DNA of 59,296 nt from a virus, in the IMG/VR virus record IMGVR_UViG_3300039171_000065, positions 1-59,296 of that record; one strand, given 5' to 3'. The position numbers and the translations under genes were made by a program. Positions 2,538 to 33,192 of the stretch are shown in pieces. Below the pieces are notes generated by a model. It saw only the letters and a list, made by a program, of their open reading frames with translations. It ran no database searches and was not told the origin of the DNA. Position 1 is the stretch's first letter, and the number at the start of each line of letters is the position of its first letter.

Positions 2538-4342
2538 CATGCCTCGATTTTATATTTTATAGAACCCGCATCGTACATAATTGTGTATCCATGCATGTTC
2601 ATATTCTCTTTTTCTGTTAGTTGTTCATCAAACCTTTCTAATACATTTTCTAGTTTATGCTTCATGAAAGCCTTTCTTGAATATCTTTCCAGTCCCTTAA
2701 AGTAATGATAATTCGGTTCTGTAACTCCAAACATTTCAAATCCATACTTTTCATAAACATTTCCGTGTGAGTAGTCCAAACTTGCGAAGGTTTCTATGAC
2801 ACTCCATACATTGTTCCTTTGAAAGTGTGTGAGAAGCTTAGAGAAGCCCCCTACTACGTTCTTTGATGTTGCATAGCGTACTAGGTCATACTGGTCAGAA
2901 GTCTTTCCTGTGAGCTTCTTAAAGCTGATACAAGCCACAAATTCACCATTGAATACCAACCCATAATTAACTTTTGAATCATTGTACCCTTGTACGTGTG
3001 TTTCTGTGTAAAATTCCCTAGCCTCACTTGCCGTTACAGAAACTACCTCACACTTCCGAGCATAAACTTTTTCTTTGGTTGATTTGTTGCACTTTTGAAT
3101 GATCTTTTCTTTTATGATTTCTTTGGTTACTGGATTTGCCCACTGATCTTCATATACATGAATCAATAGAATCCCTGCTTCTTTACAAGCCAGTGCCTTT
3201 TGTTGATGATAAGCCTTATCCTTATAAACATCCGAATGCCAGTACACCCCGTTGTACTCAATAGCCACATTATGTTCTGGTATATAGATATCGAGTTCTT
3301 TTGGTGCTAACACACTTCTGTTACTTGTTTCGTAATTGATTCCAGCTTCATCAAGAATGTTACAAATTTCCTTTTCTGCATTAGAAACCGTTCTTAAAAT
3401 ATTGTCATTAACATATATATCGTGTTCTTTTAAAGCTTGCAGGACTGTTCTGTGTGAACCAATTCCTAATCGCTTTGCAATGATATGCGAGTTACCAACT
3501 TCTTTGTACATTTCTGACAGTGATTCTTTATCATACAAAACAGAACTAGCCAGTGCGCTATAATGTGATCTAGCAGAAAAAACATGTCCATACTTTTTTA
3601 AATTGACTTCTTTTACTTTTTCTTTTACTTCATCACACATCATCGGGCTATGGACACCATATCTTTCTGTGTTTGTGGCTTGTGTTCTTGCTAGAATATC
3701 AGGGTTTTGTAGTGGTGATATCACACCCCATTTAGCAACCATTCCAGCTTGAACCTTATCCTTTGCAAACTCAAAAGGATTTGCTGATCCATACTTTTCT
3801 ATGTTGGATGATTCTCTGGCCGCGATTACCTCTGGATTAGATAAATGGTGTGTATGTCCAGTTCGCTCAAAATATTCTTCTTTGTAAGATTCTTGAAACT
3901 CGTTTGATGAAATATAACAAGCTGACCCGTACCTTTCCATGTTGGTTTTTCTTATCTTTTCTTTTACAGCATCACTTCCCATATGGTGCTTTGATCCATA
4001 CTTTTTAAGATTCGTTTCTTCTCTTTTTTTCAGTGTTCCTTTGCTTGTACAAACCTTGCTACAAAAAGCCCTGAAACCATTCTTGTAATAGTGATCAACC
4101 TTAACCCTGTTTGCACCAATAGGAGCAACACACCCACACTGGCCACAGTATTGAATCTCTGTTATGTCGTTTATCACAACAAAGCATCGTGTTGGTGCTT
4201 TTACCGTGTCATAAGAATCATCAAGAAACGTAGTCGCTTCTTTTAGAGCAGAAACAAATTTCAGGTATTTTTCTGTTCTGAGTTCTCGCCCTGTCGGGTA
4301 TTCGTTGTCAATAATAAAATTTTTTAGTTCTTGGTAAGGCAT
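2537..4342 (-). CDS. Large homing endonuclease with tandem DNA-binding repeats and a Vsr-like PD-(D/E)XK domain
   Basis: 601 residues from the ATG that has an AAAAGGAAA SD. The N-terminal half has a zinc-finger-like CGQCGC...CSKVC segment, then about five repeats of the form NxxKYGSxxH / NMERYGSAC / NIEKYGSAN / NTERYGVHS / NLKKYGHVF, typical of NUMOD-type DNA readers. A helix-turn-helix segment (SHIIAKRLGIGSHRTVLQAL) follows. The nuclease core reads ELDIYIPEHNVAIEYNGVYWH with a later HVYEDQW, the pattern of the very-short-patch-repair-like (EDxHD, I-Bth0305I-type) homing enzymes. The C-terminus looks like an acetyltransferase-type accessory domain. A perfect late promoter precedes it. Confidence 0.82.
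   Translation of the reverse strand: MPYQELKNFIIDNEYPTGRELRTEKYLKFVSALKEATTFLDDSYDTVKAPTRCFVVINDITEIQYCGQCGCVAPIGANRVKVDHYYKNGFRAFCSKVCTSKGTLKKREETNLKKYGSKHHMGSDAVKEKIRKTNMERYGSACYISSNEFQESYKEEYFERTGHTHHLSNPEVIAARESSNIEKYGSANPFEFAKDKVQAGMVAKWGVISPLQNPDILARTQATNTERYGVHSPMMCDEVKEKVKEVNLKKYGHVFSARSHYSALASSVLYDKESLSEMYKEVGNSHIIAKRLGIGSHRTVLQALKEHDIYVNDNILRTVSNAEKEICNILDEAGINYETSNRSVLAPKELDIYIPEHNVAIEYNGVYWHSDVYKDKAYHQQKALACKEAGILLIHVYEDQWANPVTKEIIKEKIIQKCNKSTKEKVYARKCEVVSVTASEAREFYTETHVQGYNDSKVNYGLVFNGEFVACISFKKLTGKTSDQYDLVRYATSKNVVGGFSKLLTHFQRNNVWSVIETFASLDYSHGNVYEKYGFEMFGVTEPNYHYFKGLERYSRKAFMKHKLENVLERFDEQLTEKENMNMHGYTIMYDAGSIKYKIEA
2541..2556. repeat. 16-nt direct repeat, copy 1 (flanks the large homing endonuclease)
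   Basis: GCCTCGATTTTATATT here overlaps the last codons of the minus-strand endonuclease. The exact second copy (4430-4445) lies beyond its 5' end, so the pair brackets the element. Confidence 0.7.
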
Positions 4343-5808: not shown

Positions 5809-6297
5809 TTATGCACCACTTTCGAACTTCCGATAGTCTATGACTGATTTAATGTGAAATCCTCGATTAGAAATGTCTTTCACAGTTCTTTCAAGGTAGT
5901 TCACAATTTGTTTTTGTACCTCTAGCAGTTCAGAAGCGTATCCTAATCTTTTGTCGGCTGCAAGATACTTGTCAATATCACCTTTGAGAACCTTTTCGTT
6001 AAAGACTCCAAACTTTGTGTAATATTGATCTGTCTGCTTCCCGTTGAAATATTTCCATCGTTCAAGATAGACACGTTTTTGAATCTGTTGGTATTTTATC
6101 AGGGACATAGACTCGTTGGCGAACATTACAGAATATTTCTGATGAAGCTTTGGTGTTCTAATAGCTTCACCGTCAATATCAAATTCATCAATCTCTACAT
6201 CTTTTCCTGCAAGCTGAACCAGTTCAACAAAACTATTTTCTGCTTTGTCGATGAGGTCTTCTAAATCACTATTATGATCCGTACTCAATTGTTTCAC
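5809..6297 (-). CDS. uvsY: UvsY-like recombination mediator
   Basis: Loads UvsX recombinase on gp32-covered single-stranded DNA in T4 recombination-dependent replication. The C-terminus SNRGFHIKSVIDYRKFESG closely matches the diagnostic UvsY ending (SRGFAIKHIQDMRAFEAG in T4). The helical, charged body also fits. At 162 residues it is slightly longer than T4 UvsY (137). The start is GTG, 26 nt inside the end of the preceding tail-tube-family gene, so expression is coupled to the late minus-strand transcript. UvsX, gp32 and gp59 partners are all in this window. Confidence 0.88.
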   Translation of the reverse strand: MKQLSTDHNSDLEDLIDKAENSFVELVQLAGKDVEIDEFDIDGEAIRTPKLHQKYSVMFANESMSLIKYQQIQKRVYLERWKYFNGKQTDQYYTKFGVFNEKVLKGDIDKYLAADKRLGYASELLEVQKQIVNYLERTVKDISNRGFHIKSVIDYRKFESGA

Positions 6298-6772
6298 CTG
6301 TGATTACGTTGTTTATAGTGTAGTGAGTGTACACGAATGTCGCAGAAGATGCAAGTGTTGTTTCGTCACCAACAATATCATATTCAATGTCGCCAATATC
6401 TGTTACGTGAGCGTTGTTGTAACGGATTCTGATCGTTGGTGCGTTGCTTCTGTCTAGGACGGTCAGTTCTACATATGACGTTAGATCGTTGCCCTGTGAG
6501 TCTTTGACGCCGCGAGAGAGTGCAAACATCCATTTGTTCAGTGTAACCCATTGCGACAAGTTTTCATCCAGCAAAAATCGAAGGGTTAGATCACCAAACT
6601 CAACCTTGTCACCGGGAAAAGGAATATTTGAAAAACGTGCTGGCATTTCCGCTGGTGTTAAACTAGCACCTCCCATGTTTGTACCTTGAATGGTGTACGT
6701 GATATCTCTATCATACCCAAGTACAGCGATAAACGAGGTTGATTTTGCTGTGTTAATAGCCTTTGTAGTCAT
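6272..6772 (-). CDS. Tail-tube-fold structural protein (gp19/gp54-like)
   Basis: 166 residues. The segment FPGDKVEFGDLTLRFLLDENLSQWVTLNKWM followed by a beta-rich half ending in TDIGDIEYDIVGDETTLASSATFVYTHY matches the plan of phage tail-tube-fold proteins: a strand, then the D-E-x-x-x-W loop, then a helix, then closing strands (T4 gp19, and the gp54/gp48 tube initiators). Which position it fills, tube or initiator, cannot be decided here. A GATAAATA late promoter lies 37 nt upstream, consistent with a virion protein. Confidence 0.65.
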   Translation of the reverse strand: MTTKAINTAKSTSFIAVLGYDRDITYTIQGTNMGGASLTPAEMPARFSNIPFPGDKVEFGDLTLRFLLDENLSQWVTLNKWMFALSRGVKDSQGNDLTSYVELTVLDRSNAPTIRIRYNNAHVTDIGDIEYDIVGDETTLASSATFVYTHYTINNVITGETIEYGS

Positions 6773-11813: not shown

Positions 11814-12908
11814 ATGAGCAAAGTAATGATATCAACAGATTGGCATATCGGGGCGCGAGGTGGCAGTACAATCTTTCGAGATTATTTTACGTGGTATTTT
11901 AAAGAAAAATTCTTTCCTTATATGAAAGAAAACAACATCACCACACTATTAATGCTTGGTGATTTTTTTGATAATCGAAACCACTTGTCACTCAGTGATA
12001 TTGCTTTTGTGAATGAGGTTTTTCTGCCTTTGCTAGAGTCACATAAGTGTACTATGTACACCATTGCTGGTAATCATGATCTGGCATTCAAAAATACAAA
12101 TGCAGTCACATCTTTGTCTATTATGCAACACAGCAAATATGTACACATTCTAAAAGACAAGGTAGAAGAATTCAATTTTGATGGTAGTCGGTTTGTATTT
12201 GTGCCATGGATCAACGGCAACAACTACGATGAGTTCATGACAGAACTAAACAACATCAAAGACAAAGAAAACACATTTGTACTTTGCCACGCCGAATTTA
12301 ATTCATTTCTCATGTACAAGAATTCATCTCGTTGTGAATCTGGAATCGAACCAAGCCTTTTCAAAGAATTTAAAGGTGTGTGGTCTGGTCACTTTCATCA
12401 CCCGTCAAAAATTGGTAATGTCGAATATCTGGGATCAATGTTTCATCTCAATTGGCAAGATCATAACGACAAGCGCGGGTTCTGGGTGTATGACACAGAC
12501 ACACAAGAAAAGGTTCATATTGAAAACGAGTATAGCTTGTTCACTGAAATTCTCTACGAAGACGATCATGGATTGACAGATGATCAGATCAATGAGTATT
12601 GCAACCACCAGTTTGTAAAAGTTGTGATCGACAAAGAATATGATAAAGTCAAGTTTATGGACTTTTTCTCTAAGGTTAACAGCGCCAAACCGATTGATGT
12701 ACAGGTTCAGAATAATTATGCTATACTGAGTGCCAAAGAAATTACCAAAACTGATGCTGCTGAACCAGACGTAAAAGATAAGTCTATTGATACTTACATA
12801 GACACATACGTTATGAAGACAGTTTCAGAAGACAAGCGGGCCTCGATTATGAGCAAGTTCAATGATGTAAAGGCTAAAGCATCTGACATGATAGTTAAGG
12901 GTGAATAA
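11814..12908 (+). CDS. 47: Recombination nuclease subunit gp47 (Mre11/SbcD-like)
   Basis: Metallophosphoesterase nuclease that partners gp46 to resect DNA ends for UvsX recombination. Motifs: DWHIG (Asp9, His11), LGDFFDNR (about 48), GNHD (about 86-89), CHAEF (about 158), SGHFHHP (about 192). The 364-residue length is near T4 gp47 (339). It lies 2 nt before gp46 in one operon. Confidence 0.95.
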   Translation: MSKVMISTDWHIGARGGSTIFRDYFTWYFKEKFFPYMKENNITTLLMLGDFFDNRNHLSLSDIAFVNEVFLPLLESHKCTMYTIAGNHDLAFKNTNAVTSLSIMQHSKYVHILKDKVEEFNFDGSRFVFVPWINGNNYDEFMTELNNIKDKENTFVLCHAEFNSFLMYKNSSRCESGIEPSLFKEFKGVWSGHFHHPSKIGNVEYLGSMFHLNWQDHNDKRGFWVYDTDTQEKVHIENEYSLFTEILYEDDHGLTDDQINEYCNHQFVKVVIDKEYDKVKFMDFFSKVNSAKPIDVQVQNNYAILSAKEITKTDAAEPDVKDKSIDTYIDTYVMKTVSEDKRASIMSKFNDVKAKASDMIVKGE

Positions 12909-12911
12909 TAC

Positions 12912-14627
12912 ATGATCAATTTTAAGTCTATCAGTTACAAAAATTTTCAGTCAGTAGGTAATGCTGGCATGAAAATTGATCTTGACCGTTCGCCAACTAC
13001 CCTAATCGGTGGGCCAAATGGTGCAGGTAAAAGCAATTTGCTTGAAGCTATCAGCTACGCACTATTCGGAAAGCCACTAAAAAAGGTTAAGCTTGCTGGA
13101 CTAATCAACAGCATCAATCGAAAGAACATGCAAACTGAATGTGTGTTCACAAAATACGGCGATGAGTACAAAGTATTTCGTGGTGAAAAGCCAAAGGTCT
13201 TTAAGATTTTCAAGAACGGAGAACTGCTAGATCAGAACGCCGCAAGCAAAGATTATCAGGCTACACTAGAAAACGTCATAGGAATGGATCACAAGCTCTT
13301 CACACAGGTTTGTTTGCTGAACCGTGAGCGTTACATACCCTTTATGGATATGGGTGTTGCTGATCGTCGTAAGGTGGTAGAGGACATTCTAGACATCAAC
13401 ATTTTTGGATACATGAACAAGATTGTTAAAGGCAATACAGATTCAATCAAGGCTCAAATTTCTGACCTAGACTATGAACGTGGTTTGTCAGTGACTAAAC
13501 GTGATGGTGTTGAACGGTTGATTGAGCAGGCCAAGAACAACGTATCTGATCAGGTTGATGGACTGAACCAGCAAATTACTGACAATACAGACAAGATCAA
13601 ATCCATTGAATCGAAAGATTCTGATCTTGAAGCCAGTCTTAAAAAGTATGAAGGGCTTGATGAGAAATACAGAAAGCTAAAAGATAAGAAGCAAAAGTTC
13701 AGTGAGTTCTCTTATAAGTTCACATCAAAGATGACAGAACTGAAAAAGGAGCGGGCTTTCTATGATGATAATGATCAATGCCCGACATGCACACAGCATA
13801 TTGATGAAGATTTTAAGCAGGCCATTATAACGGGTGTTGATTCTAAGCAGGGGGAAATTACAGAACAAACCACTAAATTGATGGATGAACTGAAAAAGGT
13901 TCTGGATAAGATAAAGGAAATATCTGATCAGCTAGAAGAGAAGTCACAGATTCAATCTTCTATCAATACCAATAAGTCAGAAATAAATTTTCTTGATCGT
14001 GAAAATACAAAGCTTTCTAATCAGATAAAGTCAATCAGTGAAAATAAAGTAGATGATGGGCTTGATGGTCAGTTTTTGGAACTGGATAAGAAAGTTAATG
14101 AGATGGATGTTACTCTGAACGAGTTAATGCTTGAATTGGAAGAGTATGAAGCCATGCGCTCTATGCTTAAAGATGACGGTATCAAGGCGTCTATCGTCGA
14201 TGACTATGTTGGTTTTATCAACAAGCGCGTAAACGAATATCTGAATCATATGGGATTTTTCATCAATATCACACTGGATGGTAATTTTGAAGAAACTATC
14301 AACAGCGTTAATAAGAAAGATTTTACCTATGATAATCTAAGCACTGGTCAGAAAACTCGTGTGAATTTGGCATTGATGATGGTTCTACTTGAAGTTTCGG
14401 CTATGAAAAACAGCGCAGCCACCAACTTAATTTTTATTGATGAGCTACTTGAAAACTTAGACTCAGATGGGGTATCATTGTTTATGAATCTGATCAAAGA
14501 GAAAATGAAACACAAAAATGTCTTTGTTGCAACACAAAGGTTTGGAGAGTTTCAGGATCATTTCAGGTCAGAACTTTTGTTTAAACTTGGTGAAGATGGT
14601 TTCACAGAATTGGTAAAAAACTCATGA
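12912..14627 (+). CDS. 46: Recombination ATPase subunit gp46 (Rad50/SbcC-like)
   Basis: ABC-type ATPase that clamps DNA and powers gp47. Walker A GGPNGAGKS at 33-41, coiled-coil arms on each side of a zinc hook CPTC (about 290), ABC signature NLSTGQKTRVNLAL (about 474-487), Walker B LIFIDELLENLD (about 502-513). 571 residues compared with 560 in T4. The stop overlaps the start of a decayed small gene. Confidence 0.96.
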   Translation: MINFKSISYKNFQSVGNAGMKIDLDRSPTTLIGGPNGAGKSNLLEAISYALFGKPLKKVKLAGLINSINRKNMQTECVFTKYGDEYKVFRGEKPKVFKIFKNGELLDQNAASKDYQATLENVIGMDHKLFTQVCLLNRERYIPFMDMGVADRRKVVEDILDINIFGYMNKIVKGNTDSIKAQISDLDYERGLSVTKRDGVERLIEQAKNNVSDQVDGLNQQITDNTDKIKSIESKDSDLEASLKKYEGLDEKYRKLKDKKQKFSEFSYKFTSKMTELKKERAFYDDNDQCPTCTQHIDEDFKQAIITGVDSKQGEITEQTTKLMDELKKVLDKIKEISDQLEEKSQIQSSINTNKSEINFLDRENTKLSNQIKSISENKVDDGLDGQFLELDKKVNEMDVTLNELMLELEEYEAMRSMLKDDGIKASIVDDYVGFINKRVNEYLNHMGFFINITLDGNFEETINSVNKKDFTYDNLSTGQKTRVNLALMMVLLEVSAMKNSAATNLIFIDELLENLDSDGVSLFMNLIKEKMKHKNVFVATQRFGEFQDHFRSELLFKLGEDGFTELVKNS

Positions 14628-14780
14628 AGGTGATCATTTGCGGGTCAAGAAAATTATTTTTTAGAACCAAGTGAGGTTGAACAGGCTGTCATCCTCTCTG
14701 GCTTTAAAATCACTGAGTTGGGTGTGGTTTGGCGAAAGGAACAAAGGACTGCTATGATCGAGCTTGTAAAGCAAATCTGA
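14624..14780 (+). pseudogene. Decayed SLOG/DprA-like (DUF2493-type) gene
   Basis: The start MKVIICGSR overlaps the gp46 stop (ATGA) and matches the first strand and loop of SLOG-fold proteins. That frame stops after 16 codons. One frame over, the sequence continues FLEPSEVEQAVILSGFKITEL and then jumps to VVWRKEQRTAMIEL, with the usual SGGAxGVD block missing. A frameshift plus an internal deletion explains it. Family assignment is from the short motifs only. Confidence 0.55.
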
Positions 14781-14817
14781 AAATGTACCTACACAACACA
14801 AATGGGTTAATGACACT

Positions 14818-15993
14818 ATGAAGATTACACAAGAATTGGTTGAAACATACGTTGATCGTGGGCTTGTGAAACGAAACGTATTGGGTGATTTCACACTCTA
14901 CTGTTATTCACAAGAAACATTTTTTGATAAGTCATGGGATGATGTGACAAAATCTTGTCGTGGTCTGGTATTTTATAAGGGCGAGATTGTCAATCATCCA
15001 TTTCCAAAAATTTTCAATCTGGATGAGGTTGAAGAAACATCACTTGATCAAGTCATGAGCTTGATTGCTGGTGGTCAAGAATACGTGCTTTGTCACAAAG
15101 TAAACGGCCATCTATGTATTGTTGATTATATTGCAGAATTGGACAAGTTTCTGGTTCATACAAAGGGTTCTCTTCAAGACAATGAAATGAATCAATCTGA
15201 TAAAGAAATGTTTTTTACTCAACACACTCATATGATAGAAAAGATTCGATCAAATGGTTCGAGTGTTACTTTCATGTTTGAGTCTATTCATGAAGACGAC
15301 CAACATACACTATACGAACAAGAAGTTTCCCGCTATGGTGGAAGAAACAACTTGGTTTTACTTGGTGGATATCATGAAAATCCACAGAGAAAAGGTCATT
15401 GGAAGTCATTACCGCCATGGTCACTACAAAAATGGGCAGAATATAGTGGAACTCCCTGTGTCGAACACGATGAAGAAAAAGCACTGGATCATGACACAAT
15501 CAAGCTTATGTTTGATGAGATTGACACAGAAGGCTACGTTATCTGGTTTACCAATCTCGATTTTCGAGTCAAGGTCAAAACCACAGACTACTGGAAAATG
15601 CGGTTTCGTAAAGAGTTAACACCAGATACCATTATTGATAAGTTTGTTTCTGGTGGGGACACACGAATCCAAAACCGATACCCAGAAGAGATTGCTGATA
15701 AGGCTGTTGATTTGATAGAAAGATATTTCGATAGGTTTATTGCTGATGCTGGTCTAAGTATCCCTGCAAAAGCTTTTGGATTAGAAAGAAAGAATATTGC
15801 TCAAAGTGATTTACTGACAAATATGCAAAAATCTTTGTTATTCAACATCTTAGACGGAAAGAAAATAGTTATTAAAAAATATATGAATAATAAGCAATTT
15901 CGACTTGACTTCAAAGCCTATATGAACGATAATGAGTCATACAAGAAAGACATTGCGGATTCACTCATTAAATACATTGAAGAACGAGGATAA
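14818..15993 (+). CDS. T4 Rnl1-like RNA ligase
   Basis: Seals RNA 5'-phosphate to 3'-OH ends through a ligase-adenylate, for example in tRNA repair. Nucleotidyltransferase motif I is HKVNGHL with Lys near 94 (Lys99 in T4 Rnl1). Further motifs are CRGLVFY (about 46), FMFESI (about 152), EGYVIWF (about 239) and VKVKTTDYW (about 252). The C-terminal third is helical, as in Rnl1. 391 residues versus 374 in T4. It heads a cluster with a small membrane protein, a polynucleotide kinase and a phosphatase. Confidence 0.88.
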   Translation: MKITQELVETYVDRGLVKRNVLGDFTLYCYSQETFFDKSWDDVTKSCRGLVFYKGEIVNHPFPKIFNLDEVEETSLDQVMSLIAGGQEYVLCHKVNGHLCIVDYIAELDKFLVHTKGSLQDNEMNQSDKEMFFTQHTHMIEKIRSNGSSVTFMFESIHEDDQHTLYEQEVSRYGGRNNLVLLGGYHENPQRKGHWKSLPPWSLQKWAEYSGTPCVEHDEEKALDHDTIKLMFDEIDTEGYVIWFTNLDFRVKVKTTDYWKMRFRKELTPDTIIDKFVSGGDTRIQNRYPEEIADKAVDLIERYFDRFIADAGLSIPAKAFGLERKNIAQSDLLTNMQKSLLFNILDGKKIVIKKYMNNKQFRLDFKAYMNDNESYKKDIADSLIKYIEERG

Positions 15994-15997
15994 TATT

Positions 15998-16192
15998 ATG
16001 AACGCTGGACTATTGATGGTTGTGATTTGTTTTGCTGCTCTGGCAGGTCTTGGATTTGCTATCTCATTTGGAGTATATATTGTTGTAGCAGTCTTTGGTG
16101 GAAACACCACCATTACAAAAAAAATGATGAAATTCTTTGGCATCGTTCTGGGAGCTAGTTTAGTCGGCTTCTTATTCGCTGCTGATAAGTAA
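15998..16192 (+). CDS. Small two-helix membrane protein in the RNA-repair cluster
   Basis: 64 residues with hydrophobic segments at about 3-33 and 44-61 separated by GGNTTITKKMMK. The ATG follows the ligase stop by 4 nt. No family recognised. Its place between ligase and kinase genes is conserved synteny only if other genomes show it. Confidence 0.65.
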   Translation: MNAGLLMVVICFAALAGLGFAISFGVYIVVAVFGGNTTITKKMMKFFGIVLGASLVGFLFAADK

Positions 16193-16205
16193 ACGGGAAT
16201 ACGTT

Positions 16206-16730
16206 ATGATTATACTGATGAGAGGAACATCGTGTTCTGGAAAAGGAACTTTCATTGAAACATATTTTGGGCATGAAAGTTCCAACCACGTTTTGTCATC
16301 TGACAATTTTCGAGAGATGTTGTGTGGAACGGTAACAGAACAAACACAGAACAAAATTGTGTTTGATACAATTAGAATGGTTCTAGAGAACCGTTTGAGA
16401 AATCGCGTACCTTTGACCATTCTTGACGCCACACATATTCGATTCAAAGACTGTCAAGACGTGGTTGATCTGTCTAAAAAGTACCATACACCTATCATGG
16501 TAATTTCGATTCAGCCACCTTCTATCGAAGAGTTGAAGTCTAGAAACTTTGATCGTATGAAAGAAACAGGGTTCTTTGTACCAGAAGGGGTTCTTGAAAA
16601 GCATCATCATCGTTACACAGCTTCCATGGCCCCATTTATTAAAGAAGCAATGTACAACGAGTATCTCAAATTTACTGAAATTGACCAAGATTACAACGTG
16701 GTTCGTTTTGTTGAGGGGGTTGATAAGTGA
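16206..16730 (+). CDS. Polynucleotide 5'-kinase (Pnkp/PseT-type kinase domain)
   Basis: Single P-loop kinase domain, 174 residues: GTSCSGKGT at 7-15, SSDNFREML (about 37), ILDATHIR (about 78) and a lid segment FDRMKETGFFVPEGVLEKHHHRY. The arrangement is closest to the kinase module of bacterial Pnkp and T4 polynucleotide kinase. The T4 HAD phosphatase domain is absent. Its TGA overlaps the GTG of the phosphatase gene. Confidence 0.85.
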   Translation: MIILMRGTSCSGKGTFIETYFGHESSNHVLSSDNFREMLCGTVTEQTQNKIVFDTIRMVLENRLRNRVPLTILDATHIRFKDCQDVVDLSKKYHTPIMVISIQPPSIEELKSRNFDRMKETGFFVPEGVLEKHHHRYTASMAPFIKEAMYNEYLKFTEIDQDYNVVRFVEGVDK

Positions 16731-17530
16731 GTAAATTTGATCTTGATGAAATGATGATTGATCACGGCAACAGAGTCAAATCAGTACGTGTTGATGTCAA
16801 CAGATATAATGTGTACGCTATTGGTGACGTACATGGGTGTAATTCTGAGATGATAGAACTCATTGAAAAATGTCTTGTTCATTGTTACAAAGAGAAAAAA
16901 TTTGCAAAAATTTACTTGCTTGGTGACTTGATTGACAGAGGCCCAGATTTTTTTGAAGTTTTCTTGTCACTACAGCATACTTTTATCGAATGTATCATTG
17001 GAAATCATGAACTGAATTTCTACCTTGAACGAATGGGCAAAGAATGTCGTTCCCGTTCACGTAAAGTCTCTCATGACAAATTTGATGCATTGGAAGAACA
17101 GCATCAAGACTTTGTTATGAAGAGTATTGGTGATATGCCAAACGCAGCCATTGTAGAGCTTTTTGACGATACAGGTGATATGGATATGGTTCCTTTTCTT
17201 TTATCACATTCACCAATCAGGAATATTGAGTATATCGAAACAGATGGTGTTTACAGCACATTAAACGCACCACAATGCTGTATGCGATCAACACAAATCG
17301 ACATGAATGCCTTAGATAAAACAACGAATGGTTGTGTGTTGGTTCATGGGCACCAGTCATGGAACTTTAAACCAGTTCCTGAACAGTTAGAAGATCAAGA
17401 AAAATACAACAACAAAGTAATCAATATTGATTCCGGTTGTGTGTATGGAGAAAAGCTTACAGCACTTTGCTTAAATTCACTTGAAGTGATTGAGGTACAA
17501 GCTAAAAAGGCGTATAGTACACGCCACTGA
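16727..17530 (+). CDS. Metallophosphoesterase (Pnkp/PrpE/lambda-PP-like)
   Basis: Dinuclear-metal phosphatase, 267 residues, GTG start overlapping the kinase stop. Motifs: GDVHGC (Asp34, His36), GDLIDRGPD (about 65), GNHE (about 91), LSHSP (about 162), LVHGHQ (about 206) and a final DSGCVYG. The same fold supplies the 3'-end-healing phosphatase of bacterial Pnkp; it is also found in Ap4A hydrolases and protein phosphatases. Coupling to the kinase and ligase favours end healing of RNA. Confidence 0.85.
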   Translation: MSKFDLDEMMIDHGNRVKSVRVDVNRYNVYAIGDVHGCNSEMIELIEKCLVHCYKEKKFAKIYLLGDLIDRGPDFFEVFLSLQHTFIECIIGNHELNFYLERMGKECRSRSRKVSHDKFDALEEQHQDFVMKSIGDMPNAAIVELFDDTGDMDMVPFLLSHSPIRNIEYIETDGVYSTLNAPQCCMRSTQIDMNALDKTTNGCVLVHGHQSWNFKPVPEQLEDQEKYNNKVINIDSGCVYGEKLTALCLNSLEVIEVQAKKAYSTRH

Positions 17531-17559
17531 AACATTAACCAATGAGAGAAAGGTATATT

Positions 17560-18258
17560 ATGAGTGAAAATGAAATTAAGTTGTCAGACAAAACAATCAA
17601 GACTTTCAAGAAGCTATACAGCATCAACCAAAGCTTGAGAGTTCTTGACAGCAACACCACTGTGAAGTCTATCAATGAAACAAAAACTTTGGCAGCATAC
17701 GTAGAAATTGAAGAGAGTTTCCCTCGTGATTTCTGTGTGTATGATCTGGGTGAATTTATCAGTGTGTTGAGCATTGTTAATGAACCAGTGTTAGATTTCT
17801 CAAGTGATCGGTTTGTGATTGTAAAAAGCAGCGACAATTCCCAACGTTTGAAGTATATTGAAACAAGTCCTGATCTGATCACATCCTATTTTGAGAATGA
17901 AATCAGTCTCAAGTCAGAAGATATTGTTATTGACGTTGATGAAAAGAGCTTGAAAGCAGTCATGAAAAGTGCAGCTACCTTGCGACTTGAATACATTGGC
18001 TTTCGCGCTGACGGTGAGAACGTATATTTCACTACATTTAATCGCCGCGTAGATAGCGACAACCAAGAAATGAACGCCTTTACAATTGAGCTTGGCCCAT
18101 GTGAAGATACGTTTGATATCTTTTATCCAACAGAGATTATGACGGTTCTAGATGATGAGTGTGAATTCACATTCTCAAAAACACAGCGCATATCTCGTGT
18201 TCGTTGTGGTACTATGGAATACTGGATTGCCATGGACAAAGATTCTGAAATTCAATAA
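17560..18258 (+). CDS. 45: Sliding clamp gp45
   Basis: Trimeric processivity clamp for gp43 and co-activator of late transcription. 232 residues, close to T4 gp45 (228). Two-domain clamp features: KLSDKTIKTFKKLYSINQSLRV at the start, an acidic surface and a C-terminal IDENTITY-like block ISRVRCGTMEYWIAMD. The ATG is chosen because AGAGAAAGG lies just upstream. It is followed by both loader subunits and regA, the T4 order 45-44-62-regA. Confidence 0.9.
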   Translation: MSENEIKLSDKTIKTFKKLYSINQSLRVLDSNTTVKSINETKTLAAYVEIEESFPRDFCVYDLGEFISVLSIVNEPVLDFSSDRFVIVKSSDNSQRLKYIETSPDLITSYFENEISLKSEDIVIDVDEKSLKAVMKSAATLRLEYIGFRADGENVYFTTFNRRVDSDNQEMNAFTIELGPCEDTFDIFYPTEIMTVLDDECEFTFSKTQRISRVRCGTMEYWIAMDKDSEIQ

Positions 18259-18276
18259 TCGAGAGGGTTGATATTA

Positions 18277-19227
18277 ATGAGACATAATGAACGCGAAACG
18301 ATCTGGGTTGAAAAATTCAGACCAGATCGTGTGGAAGACGTAATTCTTCCACAAAGAATTAAGACGCAGTTTGAAGATATTGTCAAGGGAAACGAAGTTC
18401 CTAATATGCTTTTGTACGGTGGTGCTGGTGTAGGAAAAACAACAACAGCAAAAGCATTGTGTAAGGAAGTTGATACTGATTGGTTGATTATCAATATCTC
18501 AGAGGAATCAGGTATTGATACACTGCGAACAAAGATCAGAGATTTTGCATCAACACTTTCACTGACTGGCAAAGACAAAAAGAAGTGTGTGATTCTTGAT
18601 GAGTTTGATCATGCTAGTAATGCCTTACAAGCTGGCTTGCGAGGGTTCATTGAATCGTTTTCAAAGACATGTTCATTCGTTATGACGTGCAACTTTCCTA
18701 ATCGAATCATTGATCCTGTTAAGTCTAGGCTTGTTTGTATAGACTTTGGTGTGACCAAAGAAGAATCAATGAAGATGCAAGCTCAGATGTTCAAACGTGT
18801 TTCTGCCATTTTAGATTTTGAGCAGATTCCTTTTGACAAGCGAGTTGTGGTTAAGCTGGTACAGAAGTTCTATCCAGACAACCGCCGTATTCTGAATCAG
18901 ATTCAGCAATACTCAAAAGCGGGTGAGATTGATGAAGGCATTCTTTTAAACATCGAAGAGATGAGTATTGAGAAGCTGGTTCTGGCTATGAAGGGTAAGA
19001 AGTTTAAAGATGTTCGACAATGGTGTGCAGAGAACGCCAAGAACGATCTTACCAATACCTATACAATGCTATACGCTGAGTTGAAAAACTTTGTAGAGCC
19101 TTCGTCAGTGCCACAGGCGGTGATTACCATTGGCGACTACCAACGCTATGATAGTGTGGTTCCAGACAAAGAGATTCATATCTGCGCTTTGGCAACACAG
19201 ATCATGATGGAAGTTGATTTCCTATGA
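18277..19227 (+). CDS. 44: Clamp-loader ATPase gp44
   Basis: AAA+ subunit that opens and loads gp45. 316 residues (T4: 319). Walker A YGGAGVGKTTTAKAL (about 47-61), Walker B ILDEFDHA (about 106), sensor 1 FVMTCNFPNRI (about 130), SRC-like arginine-finger region DPVKSRL (about 147). An AGAGGG SD precedes the ATG. Stop overlaps the gp62 start (ATGA). Confidence 0.96.
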   Translation: MRHNERETIWVEKFRPDRVEDVILPQRIKTQFEDIVKGNEVPNMLLYGGAGVGKTTTAKALCKEVDTDWLIINISEESGIDTLRTKIRDFASTLSLTGKDKKKCVILDEFDHASNALQAGLRGFIESFSKTCSFVMTCNFPNRIIDPVKSRLVCIDFGVTKEESMKMQAQMFKRVSAILDFEQIPFDKRVVVKLVQKFYPDNRRILNQIQQYSKAGEIDEGILLNIEEMSIEKLVLAMKGKKFKDVRQWCAENAKNDLTNTYTMLYAELKNFVEPSSVPQAVITIGDYQRYDSVVPDKEIHICALATQIMMEVDFL

Positions 19228-19619
19228 GTGAGGTAAAGAGCGTTTTTGATTTTGTGAACGATATAGGCTTTACAAAAGAATACCTATATACAGAACAAAC
19301 AAAATCTAAGTATGAATCGTTCATTGTTAATCGTGCAATGAGTCAACACCCTGATTCAATCATGTATGCTAATGAGATGAATAAGTATCCTGAATTGAAT
19401 AAGCTGTTGCAACACGATTTCTACTTCTATGTACTGAGTCGAAAGAAGCGATACGGAAAATGGGCCAAGGCAGACAAAGAAGATGAGGCTGTTTTGAATC
19501 TCATTATAAAGCATTACAAGGTAAATCGAGTTCACGCAAAACAGTACCTTGAACTGATGACCGATGAAAACATCAAAGCACTAAAAAATACATATGAAGT
19601 TGGGGGATTGAAGAAATGA
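19224..19619 (+). CDS. 62: Clamp-loader small subunit gp62
   Basis: 131 residues with no ATPase motifs, coupled by ATGA overlaps to gp44 and regA, which is the gp62 position. T4 gp62 is 187 residues, so this is a shortened version. It includes FDFVNDIGFTKEYLY near the start and a helical body. The assignment depends on synteny plus weak similarity. Confidence 0.82.
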   Translation: MSEVKSVFDFVNDIGFTKEYLYTEQTKSKYESFIVNRAMSQHPDSIMYANEMNKYPELNKLLQHDFYFYVLSRKKRYGKWAKADKEDEAVLNLIIKHYKVNRVHAKQYLELMTDENIKALKNTYEVGGLKK

Positions 19620-20026
19620 GTCATATTGAATCAGTGATCAATAACATGGTAGAAATTGAAGTAGATGGTGATGACGGGTTTCGAAAAGTAAAAGAAACCT
19701 TGACACGAATGGGTGTCCCTGCTAAGAATGAAAAGAAGCTGTTTCAAAGTGTTCACATTCTACATAAGCAAGGTAAATACTATCTCTGTCATTTCAAAGA
19801 ACTTTTTGGCTTGGATGGTCGCGAATCCACAATTTCAGAGGGGGATATTGCAAGGCGTAATCGAATTGTACAAATGATGGTTGACTGGGAACTGGTTAAG
19901 ATGGTTAGTGAGTCTGAACTAACACCCATGGGCAAATCATCAATGGTCAAGGTTATTAAGCACAGCGAAAAAGATGAATGGACAACATCACAGAAATATG
20001 CAATCGGTGTTAAAAAGCGTAGTTGA
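19616..20026 (+). CDS. regA: RegA translational repressor
   Basis: Binds early mRNAs around their start codons and represses translation. FRKVKETLTRMGVPAKNEKKLFQSVHIL and YYLCHFKELFGLDGR match T4 RegA almost residue for residue (FLKVKETLTRMGI...LYQSCHIL; YYIVHFKEMLRMDGR). 136 residues versus 122. Coupled to gp62 by ATGA. Confidence 0.95.
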   Translation: MSHIESVINNMVEIEVDGDDGFRKVKETLTRMGVPAKNEKKLFQSVHILHKQGKYYLCHFKELFGLDGRESTISEGDIARRNRIVQMMVDWELVKMVSESELTPMGKSSMVKVIKHSEKDEWTTSQKYAIGVKKRS

Positions 20027-30603: not shown

Positions 30604-31650
30604 ATGCAGTCTTTCGATGACTTTTACAAACAAGAAACTCTAGATGAGGCGGATATCAAAGCCGCTATCACGGACAAAGCAAAAACAATGTCAGCAAACA
30701 TTGTGATGAAAGCAAAAAAAGTGTTTGCTGGCCTTGACTTTGAACGCAAAGAGACTATGTTCATGCTAGAGACTTTTTTCAAGAAATTGAAAGAGATGCT
30801 AAGCACAGAGAAGACGATTACTGACGAAGACGTGAAACGGGCGCTGAAACAGTTGGGGAATGTGGGCAAATTCTCTTTGATAGCACCCCTGTTCCTTTTA
30901 CCGGGAGGCGGAACCACTACAGCAGTATTGTACATGGCAGGCAAGAAGCTATTCAACATAAGCATTTTGCCACAGGGACTTGAACAGGTCTTTGAAACCA
31001 TGTCCAATCTGAAAGAATCACTAGCTCAAATGACACAAATAAACGAGGGAGTTATGAAAGAATTTTCAGAATGGGTTGACAACAAGCTAGAAGAGAGTTC
31101 ATTATCACGTATCTGGCGTCATGTCGAAGATCACCAAGCTGGCGCTATTTCTGGGTATCGTGATGAGAATGACAAATCACAGAATAAGCAAAACAATCGT
31201 GAGATTAAATCTTACTTGTCAAAACAGGGATATTCTATAACATCTGTACAAGGTAACTACATCGAAAACTTTGGCTCTAAGAACGCGAGAGAGGTCGGTG
31301 AACCATCTTTCTTTGTAGTTGATATGAATGATAGCGGTAAGCTAGAACGCGATCTGGTTGCTCTAGGAAAACGGTTTGATCAAGATTCTGTGCTGATTGT
31401 TCCACAAGGTGGTAAAGGCGCTTACTTGATCGGAACATCAAAACGAGATGATTCTTTTCCAGCACTAGGCAATCGTGAGGTTGTAGGAAATTCTAGATAT
31501 GGTAAGGTAGCAGGTCAATTTCTTTCAAGAATTGGTGGGCGTGAATTTGCCTTTGAATCCGAAGAAGTAAAGCTTCCTTCTACTGTAAATGGAAAACGCG
31601 GGTGGTCAATTCTGGCCGACAAAGTTGAAGATCAACTTTTTAATCTATAA
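30604..31650 (+). CDS. Candidate packaged protein with a LETM1-like hydrophobic block and a C-terminal DUF3293-like domain
   Basis: 348 residues. The N-terminus MQSFDDFYKQETLDEA keeps Phe4 and Phe7 of the capsid-targeting pattern and has a prohead-protease-type site L-D-E|A at 13-16. Residues about 95-125 (FSLIAPLFLLPGGGTTTAVLYMAGKKL) resemble the LETM1-type loop, a weak similarity. The C-terminal half (SRIWRHVEDHQAGAISGYRDEN...LSKQGYSITSVQGNYIENF) follows the phage/bacterial DUF3293-like pattern. Function unknown. Confidence 0.65.
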   Translation: MQSFDDFYKQETLDEADIKAAITDKAKTMSANIVMKAKKVFAGLDFERKETMFMLETFFKKLKEMLSTEKTITDEDVKRALKQLGNVGKFSLIAPLFLLPGGGTTTAVLYMAGKKLFNISILPQGLEQVFETMSNLKESLAQMTQINEGVMKEFSEWVDNKLEESSLSRIWRHVEDHQAGAISGYRDENDKSQNKQNNREIKSYLSKQGYSITSVQGNYIENFGSKNAREVGEPSFFVVDMNDSGKLERDLVALGKRFDQDSVLIVPQGGKGAYLIGTSKRDDSFPALGNREVVGNSRYGKVAGQFLSRIGGREFAFESEEVKLPSTVNGKRGWSILADKVEDQLFNL

Positions 31651-31661
31651 AGGAAATATGA

Positions 31662-31979
31662 ATGTCTGATCAAATTGAAATTAACATCCCTAGCTCAGAA
31701 GAGCATCGCAAAGACATTTTCAAAGCAATCGAACAAATGTCTGACGCAATGACTCGAATGAAAGCCGAAGGGGAATACATTAAAGAAACGAAGAAGTTTA
31801 TCAAAGAGACTTACGAAATTGACCCGAAGTGGATTTCAAAGACCTTGAAAGACTTTCATGATGACAAATTTGATAAGACTGTGAAAGAGTTTGAAGAGTA
31901 CGAAGCCTTCTATGAAACCATTGTTAACATGAAAAACAATGCTACAGGCGACGACGAAACACCAGCATTTGACGATTAA
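31662..31979 (+). CDS. DsbA-like double-stranded DNA-binding protein
   Basis: 105 residues: an N-terminal acidic stretch, then EQMSDAMTRMKAEGEYIKETKKFIKETYEIDPKWISKTLKDFH, which follows the helical pattern of T4 DsbA, a late-promoter-associated dsDNA-binding protein (89 residues). The acidic tail is an addition. Assignment is by pattern and size and is moderate. SD AGGAAA. Followed by a composite terminator-promoter. Confidence 0.5.
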   Translation: MSDQIEINIPSSEEHRKDIFKAIEQMSDAMTRMKAEGEYIKETKKFIKETYEIDPKWISKTLKDFHDDKFDKTVKEFEEYEAFYETIVNMKNNATGDDETPAFDD

Positions 31980-31990
31980 AAACAAAAAAG

Positions 31991-32026
31991 GGGGCTTGCA
32001 AGAGTCCCTTTTTTCTTGTTTATAAA
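31991..32026 (+). promoter_or_regulatory. Composite terminator-promoter upstream of glyA-like gene
   Basis: Terminator GGGGCTT-GCAA-GAGTCCC with a T-tract. The loop TTGCAA (31996-32001) can serve as -35, 19 nt from TATAAA (32021-32026). The spacer is longer than ideal. Confidence 0.55.
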
Positions 32027-32046
32027 GCAGAGAGATTTCCGATAAG

Positions 32047-33192
32047 ATGATCAATAACACAATACAACAGATATTAGCAAAAGAGCAGTTCAGACAAACA
32101 AACACTATAGAATTGATAGCAAGCGAAAACTTTGTTAGTGACGCAGTAATGCAACTAAATGGAAGCGTATTCACTAACAAGTATGCGGAGGGATATTCTG
32201 GAAAAAGATACTATAATGGCTGCGAATATGTTGACGAAATTGAAGACTTGGCAATCGACAAATTAAAAATACTATTCGGTTGTAGTTACGCCAATGTTCA
32301 ACCACATTGTGGAGCCAACGCAAATACAGCAGTCTTTCAGGCATTTTTAAAACCCAATGATGTCATATTAGGAATGGATTTAGCAAGCGGTGGTCATCTG
32401 TCACATGGATCACCACCTAACATATCTGGTAAAATTTACAATGCATTCAGTTATGGAGTAGACAAAAATGGATGGATTGACTATGGCGAAGTTGAACGTC
32501 TTGCCAATAAACATCTTCCAAAAATGATAATATGTGGAGCTAGTGCCTACCCAAGACAAATAGACTTTATGCGCTTTAGAGCTATAGCGGATTCTGTAGG
32601 GGCTTTTTTGTTAGCTGATATATCTCACTACTCTGGACTAATTGTAGGTGGTGTTTATGGAAGTCCGGTGGGTATTGCTGATGTGATTACATCAACCACA
32701 CACAAAACTCTAAGAGGGCCGCGTGGTGGTATTATTATGTGGAACGATGAAAGATACACTCGAAAGATCAACAGCGCGATTTTTCCGGGGACACAAGGCG
32801 GGCCAATGATGAACACAATATCAGCCAAAGCACAGTGTTTTATTGAAGCAGACACAGAATCGTTTAGAAAGTATGCGCGTAAAGTGGTTGATAACGCAAA
32901 AGCGATGTGTGGGGTCTTTGAAAATCTTGGTCTAAAAACCTTGACGAATGGTACAGATTCGCACATAATACTCTTAGACCTAAGCGATAGCAGATATTCT
33001 GGAAAGGAAGCTGCTAACCTTTTAGAAGAACATGGAATAACAGTTAATAAAAATGGAATACCCAATGATTCAAGGTCTTTTGTCGAAACATCGGGTATCA
33101 GGTTAGGGACAGCAGCAGAAACAACACGAGGACATGATACACAATGGTTTGAAAAGCTTTCTGAAAGGATTGTTAAAATTTTAGAAAATTAA
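32047..33192 (+). CDS. glyA: Serine hydroxymethyltransferase
   Basis: Pyridoxal-phosphate enzyme converting serine and tetrahydrofolate to glycine and 5,10-methylene-tetrahydrofolate, the carbon donor of thymidylate synthase. Conserved features: ELIASENFVS at the start, GYSGKRYYNGCEYVDEIE, the cofactor lysine in TSTTHKTLRGPRGG (about 219), and IRLGTAAETTRG near the end. 381 residues, somewhat shorter than the usual 415-430, mainly at the C-terminus, but the catalytic core is complete. Rare in phages. AT-rich like its neighbours. Confidence 0.94.
   Translation: MINNTIQQILAKEQFRQTNTIELIASENFVSDAVMQLNGSVFTNKYAEGYSGKRYYNGCEYVDEIEDLAIDKLKILFGCSYANVQPHCGANANTAVFQAFLKPNDVILGMDLASGGHLSHGSPPNISGKIYNAFSYGVDKNGWIDYGEVERLANKHLPKMIICGASAYPRQIDFMRFRAIADSVGAFLLADISHYSGLIVGGVYGSPVGIADVITSTTHKTLRGPRGGIIMWNDERYTRKINSAIFPGTQGGPMMNTISAKAQCFIEADTESFRKYARKVVDNAKAMCGVFENLGLKTLTNGTDSHIILLDLSDSRYSGKEAANLLEEHGITVNKNGIPNDSRSFVETSGIRLGTAAETTRGHDTQWFEKLSERIVKILEN

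Follow-up and report, generated by a model that had tools for sequence, protein, structure and literature searches.

A putative split RNA end-healing and sealing cassette, likely for tRNA repair, in the replication gene region of a T4-like virus

In the enzymology of Pnkp, T4 PseT and Rnl1, a phosphatase clears the 2′,3′-cyclic phosphate or 3′-phosphate, a kinase phosphorylates the 5′-OH, and a ligase is adenylated and joins the ends. In phage T4, the kinase/phosphatase and Rnl1 undo the cleavage of tRNA-Lys by PrrC (PMC3014915). Bacterial Pnkp1–Rnl–Hen1 systems combine T4-type kinase–HAD healing with a Pnkp-type ligase and Hen1 (PMC4411300), and a survey of jumbo phages stated that, in a few phages, the phosphatase appears to be provided by calcineurin-like domains (PMC7824862), which is a partial prior prediction of the arrangement described here. 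Fused proteins of 730–780 aa, uniting a kinase, a metallophosphatase and an Rnl1-like ligase, occur in Staphylococcus phage phiIPLA-C1C, Fusobacterium phage Fnu1 and Bacillus phage SPbetaL2 (phrog_8238). The three-enzyme combination is thus already known, and what is new is a split, conserved cassette with companion genes. Based on sequence comparison, we suggest, with a probability of roughly 0.74, that a four-gene locus of an IMG/VR virus is a split RNA end-healing and sealing cassette, likely repairing tRNA, with enzyme activities, substrate and role assigned by prediction.

Gene layout, genomic setting and relatives

The window analyzed here is the whole 59,296-base IMG/VR entry, derived from a virus of bacteria, which had no close DNA relatives among 50,697 phage records and contains a T4-like core gene set (gp47, gp46, the cassette, gp45, gp44, gp62, RegA and Dda) plus a phage DNA polymerase. 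The cassette adjoins DNA-copying genes, with T4-type gp46 on one side and gp45 on the other. Upstream, gp47/gp46 (SbcD/SbcC-like) genes occupy positions 11814–14627 (+ strand), gp46 being recognized by Pfam and the 364-aa gp47-like product, which has no Pfam match, being assigned from its adjacency to gp46 and conserved synteny. Downstream, positions 17542–20026 (+) encode the sliding clamp gp45, the clamp loader gp44 and gp62, and RegA, with gp45 and gp44 called from Pfam matches and the region syntenic with annotated pf16 genes; both blocks were taken as context only. Elsewhere in the window, a gene resembling a homing endonuclease (1500–2495, phrog_314) and a methyltransferase-like gene pair (30604–33192, phrog_30877/2226 and phrog_9968) could be found.

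The preliminary description of this DNA had reported four ORFs at 14818–17530, encoding a ligase, a small membrane protein, a kinase and a phosphatase, and a check of the sequence found all four complete, on the + strand, in that order and with those borders. The gene overlap described there is also real: at GTGA (16727–16730, +) the phosphatase starts with GTG at 16727 and the kinase stops with TGA at 16728–16730, with GAGGGGG, resembling a ribosome site, just 5′ of the overlap. Kinase and phosphatase genes overlap by 1–14 nt in every relative examined. The dN/dS values of the ligase, kinase, phosphatase and membrane protein against relatives, where computable, were 0.11–0.23, and given this purifying selection all four look like real genes.

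Relatives were sought in viral contigs and phage records and could be arranged in three groups. Group A (this window, L005/L006, L021, L014/L009 and L030) has the order gp47–gp46–YAcAr–ligase–membrane protein–kinase–phosphatase–gp45, with a broken YAcAr copy in the window; group B (L017/L018, L039 and L046) has ligase–kinase–phosphatase–gp45 without the intervening membrane protein; and group C (pf16 and L034–L042) has membrane protein–kinase–phosphatase–gp45 and an Rnl2-type ligase elsewhere in the genome, while a search of the whole pf16 genome found no Rnl1-type ligase. The window phosphatase shares just 34–38% identity with those of groups B and C, and the kinase/phosphatase overlap is still kept. 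Conserved synteny, the lack of which the preliminary description had counted against its reading, is therefore present, with ligase–kinase–phosphatase–gp45 in two deeply diverged groups and kinase–phosphatase–gp45 in a third. Synteny alone is weak evidence for joint function, because the order of the T4-like replication core is conserved anyway; the fused phage protein supports joint function independently of synteny.

The genomic setting also bears on the substrate, since in groups A and B the cassette sits between gp46 and gp45, with gp46/47 and the clamp adjoining, so that the enzymes might act mostly on the ends of DNA or mRNA, as in 5′-P/3′-OH preparation during recombination and replication, rather than on host-cut tRNA. 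T4 Pnk also turns RegB-processed RNA into RNase E/G substrates (PMC3014915), in keeping with such a role. This alternative is nevertheless unlikely, considering that the unit includes an Rnl1-type RNA ligase, that the fused counterparts unite these modules outside a replication gene region, and that group C retains the kinase–phosphatase pair without upstream gp46/47. We therefore favor repair of cut RNA, probably tRNA.

Related genes were also seen in other arrangements. An unrelated viral contig (L116:4465–5816) contains a split pair in which a 148-aa kinase gene overlaps an Rnl1-like ligase gene. In Nitrincola phage 1M3-16 (L004, 3970–6686), a ligase related closely to those of group B is accompanied by a P-loop kinase on its downstream side and, upstream, by a phosphoesterase of a different type, possibly representing another repair cluster. 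In a 204-kb record (L047:984–2213 and 5977–6702), a Pnkp-like metallophosphatase and an Rnl1-like ligase lie near each other, and an Rnl2-type ligase is also present a few hundred bases off.

Predicted sealing and healing enzymes

The first cassette gene (14818–15993, +) encodes a 391-aa protein assigned to the Rnl1-type (T4 RnlA-like) ATP-dependent RNA ligases by Pfam, PHROGs, PDB profile, fold and motifs. It matched PF09511 (RNA_lig_T4_1) with 54.6 bits (1.8e-14; Pfam cut-off 28.3) and phrog_562 at 5.9e-31, and T4 Rnl1 (2c5u/9do4, ~6.5e-7) was the top PDB match of a profile from seven cassette ligases. T4 RNA ligase 1 was likewise the top Foldseek match (6.2e-13) of the AlphaFold2 model (pLDDT 85.7), the global superposition on T4 Rnl1 being loose, with a TM of about 0.5. 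Motif I reads K94-V-N-G, and the alignment to T4 Rnl1 extends to motifs Ia, III, IV and V. The score against the T4 RnlA equivalog TIGR02308 (18.3 bits) was below its cut-off of 242.25. The Pnkp model TIGR04075 gave no match to the ligase, indicating that this is not a Pnkp-type C-terminal ligase, and no Rnl2-type ligase was found in the window.

The third gene (16206–16730, +) encodes a predicted Pnkp-type polynucleotide 5′-OH kinase of 174 aa, called from TIGR04075, PDB profile and alignment. It belongs to PF13671 (AAA_33) and contains the P-loop TSCSGKGT (K13), with K13, D33 and R36 invariant in the alignment, and the kinase of C. thermocellum Pnkp (4gp7, 2.5e-18) was the top PDB match of its profile. 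The kinase matched model positions 10–151 of TIGR04075 (1.7e-19); with both genes compared to the model, the kinase covered 9–151 and the phosphatase continued consecutively at 162–296 and 379–426. This match is split over two genes, and the best score of 69.5 bits stays below the family cut-off of 750 bits. A HAD domain is absent from the kinase and its partner is a metallophosphoesterase, indicating that the pair is not of the T4 PseT type.

The overlapping fourth gene (16727–17530, +) encodes a 267-aa member of PF00149 (Metallophos), which its PDB profile, fold and residues suggest to be a Pnkp-type metallophosphoesterase, predicted to act as an RNA 2′,3′-phosphatase. The phosphatase of C. 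thermocellum Pnkp (4j6o, 1.5e-20) was the top PDB match of the profile with nearly the whole domain aligned, whereas ApaH and the phage lambda phosphatase ranked behind it with only the N-terminal part aligned, and 4j6o was also the top Foldseek match (6.5e-12) of the AlphaFold2 model (pLDDT 86.1). Nine residues (D34, H36, D67, R71, N93, H94, H161, H209 and D235) are invariant in all 12 cassette members and also align with four bacterial Pnkp sequences; we take these columns to be catalytic residues of C. thermocellum Pnkp. An Rnl1-like ligase, a Pnkp-type kinase and a metallophosphatase of the Pnkp healing type had been named beforehand from the letters of the DNA, and all three names are supported: the ligase by PF09511, profile, fold and motifs, the kinase by TIGR04075 and 4gp7, and the phosphatase by 4j6o heading both profile and fold.

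The phosphatase could alternatively be an ApaH-like or phage protein phosphatase-like enzyme, serving Ap4A hydrolysis, Np4 cap removal or protein dephosphorylation and merely lying beside the kinase and ligase. As a single sequence, its highest NCBIfam model is that of ApaH (PRK00166, 72.3 bits versus 58.3 bits for the Pnkp model), and phrog_246, which it matches, is labelled NinI-like phosphatase. Furthermore, the cassette phosphatases form their own deep branch (support 99/99), for which the tree singles out no nearest neighbour among Pnkp, ApaH and phage protein phosphatase. Such an identity is improbable all the same, as Pnkp phosphatase comes first, with the fullest coverage, by both profile and fold; the match to the ApaH equivalog TIGR00668 is far from its cut-off (38.4 versus 222.85 bits); the gene overlaps a Pnkp-type kinase gene in every relative; and other phages carry kinase–metallophosphatase fusions, such as that of Sinorhizobium phage Phosso. 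A Pnkp-type healing phosphatase is thus the preferred assignment. Matches to the phosphatase in bacterial genomes were generic stand-alone metallophosphoesterases, many from Marinobacterium and Bacteroidota, and the cassette kinase and ligase were not detected in the flanks fetched.

The small membrane protein and the YAcAr remnant

The second gene (15998–16192, +) encodes a membrane protein of 64 aa, probably with two transmembrane helices, as judged by hydropathy, homologues and dN/dS. The ORF containing it has two hydrophobic stretches, with a Kyte–Doolittle maximum of 2.56 over 19 residues. Its best start is the ATG at 15998, which is preceded by an AGGA-type ribosome site, and a longer ORF that begins at 15932 overlaps the ligase gene. 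Homologues in the same place share 78% (L021), 48% (L030) and 29% (L014) identity, and dN/dS of 0.23 versus L021 and 0.13 versus L030 indicates purifying selection. No Pfam match exceeded the cut-off, and PHROGs, PDB and phage records yielded no valuable relative. In the pf16-like group C, a membrane protein of similar size lies immediately 5′ of the kinase, and hhalign between the proteins of groups A and C (P about 0.07–0.09) does not show homology. The protein, left unexplained in the preliminary description, now proves to be conserved, and the pf16 group has a counterpart in the corresponding position.

That two otherwise different groups keep a small membrane protein directly 5′ of the kinase, even without a ligase, and that it is under purifying selection, argues for a link to the healing enzymes; as a guess, it may anchor or regulate the kinase–phosphatase pair, and its conserved position raises the question of whether the membrane is a site of RNA repair. 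The chances are about even, however, that it is a passenger (holin-like, or concerned with superinfection or host takeover) that shares the transcription unit and stands outside the repair system, since group B has no membrane protein between ligase and kinase, the proteins of groups A and C are not provably homologous, and further small membrane-protein-like ORFs crowd the gp46–ligase interval of L046. In that group B contig, three such ORFs stand in tandem at 2703–3432.

In four relatives (L005, L021, L014 and L030), gp46 and the ligase gene are separated by a YAcAr gene (PF10686, SLOG) whose end abuts or overlaps the start of the ligase gene, and the L005 protein matched PF10686 at 2.2e-7. 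In the window, alignment to the intact L005 and L021 copies revealed a remnant at 14624–14821 (+), the ends of which overlap the gp46 and ligase genes, damaged by a 1-base insertion in a T run, a 1-base deletion and a 168-nt deletion. Both single-base changes could be sequencing errors, and the 168-base deletion takes out the middle of the protein regardless of them. YAcAr proteins have known or predicted use of NAD+, making ADP-ribose-type signals (PMC7824862). Membership of this gene in the cassette is uncertain, because similar proteins occur in many phages. It could be imagined that T4-like phages possess a five-gene, membrane-linked repair system, in which a SLOG/YAcAr sensor or processor of nucleotide- or NAD-derived alarm signals would join the ligase, the healing pair and a two-helix membrane anchor, and tRNA would be mended at the membrane during infection; taken as a whole, such a system is improbable.

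Proposed function and comparison with known repair systems

The RNA-repair reading of the gene cluster offered in the preliminary description gains support from the families, conserved residues, synteny and fused counterparts. The predicted metallophosphoesterase would clear the 2′,3′-cyclic phosphate or 3′-phosphate at the end of the 5′ fragment of a cleaved RNA, the predicted kinase, co-produced with it via the overlapping genes, would phosphorylate the 5′-OH of the 3′ fragment, and the Rnl1-type ligase, adenylated on K94, would then seal 5′-phosphate to 3′-OH, the enzymes possibly being partners in a complex. The likely substrate would be tRNA that a defence nuclease of the host has cut in the anticodon loop, in parallel with T4 PseT plus Rnl1, and by this analogy a role of the cassette against anticodon nucleases is plausible. 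Neither tRNA genes nor a known nuclease target was found within the 59-kb window.

Like T4 PseT plus Rnl1 (RnlA), the locus belongs to a T4-like phage and has an Rnl1-type ligase with separate healing enzymes. However, T4 PseT is a kinase–HAD phosphatase, whereas the window phosphatase is a metallophosphoesterase and the window kinase is closer to Pnkp; moreover, T4 has 45.2 and rpbA between gp46 and gp45, with pseT and rnlA at a distance of about 100 kb. A T4 PseT query returned no match in the relatives, a result that carries no weight because the search had no positive control. The bacterial Pnkp–Hen1 system of C. thermocellum provides the nearest solved kinase and metallophosphatase (4gp7 and 4j6o), in the same order, but the window has separate genes, an Rnl1-type rather than a Pnkp C-terminal ligase, and no Hen1, TIGR04074 giving no match in this 59-kb record, which is possibly a fragment. 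The earlier summary of the cluster as Pnkp in three pieces therefore stands for kinase and phosphatase and falls for the ligase, to which TIGR04075 gave no match and for which T4 Rnl1 ranked first. By sequence, the cassette is a hybrid that joins healing enzymes of the Pnkp type to a T4-type sealing enzyme and has no Hen1.

In Pseudomonas phage pf16, gp125–gp127 (L001:8245–9693) resemble the cassette in having a small membrane protein, a kinase and a metallophosphatase followed by gp45, and differ in the ligase, since no Rnl1-type enzyme was found and an Rnl2-type ligase lies elsewhere in the genome. Their annotations are hypothetical, ATPase and NinI-like phosphatase, so that a Pnkp-type healing pair has likely been misannotated, and the text of the pf16 genome paper does not mention the kinase or phosphatase (PMC5587285). 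Our results thus suggest a function for genes of a cultured phage filed under those names.

The closest counterpart of the hybrid is the fused kinase–metallophosphatase–Rnl1 protein of other phages. The window kinase (7.7e-15), metallophosphatase (1.1e-6) and ligase (1.5e-19) match successive parts of phrog_8238, and the three catalytic modules and the kinase-then-phosphatase order are shared. The phrog_8238 protein is one polypeptide with the ligase last, whereas in the window the three genes are separate, the ligase comes first and a membrane protein gene intervenes, and fused proteins and window enzymes form separate deep branches in the trees. Bacterial Pnkp1–Rnl–Hen1 is likewise a T4/Pnkp hybrid in separate genes, of the opposite composition, so that the cassette, with its predicted Pnkp-type healing and T4-type sealing, mirrors it (PMC4411300). 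Such a mirror-image hybrid lends support to the idea of a free exchange of healing and sealing modules between phage and bacterial RNA repair.
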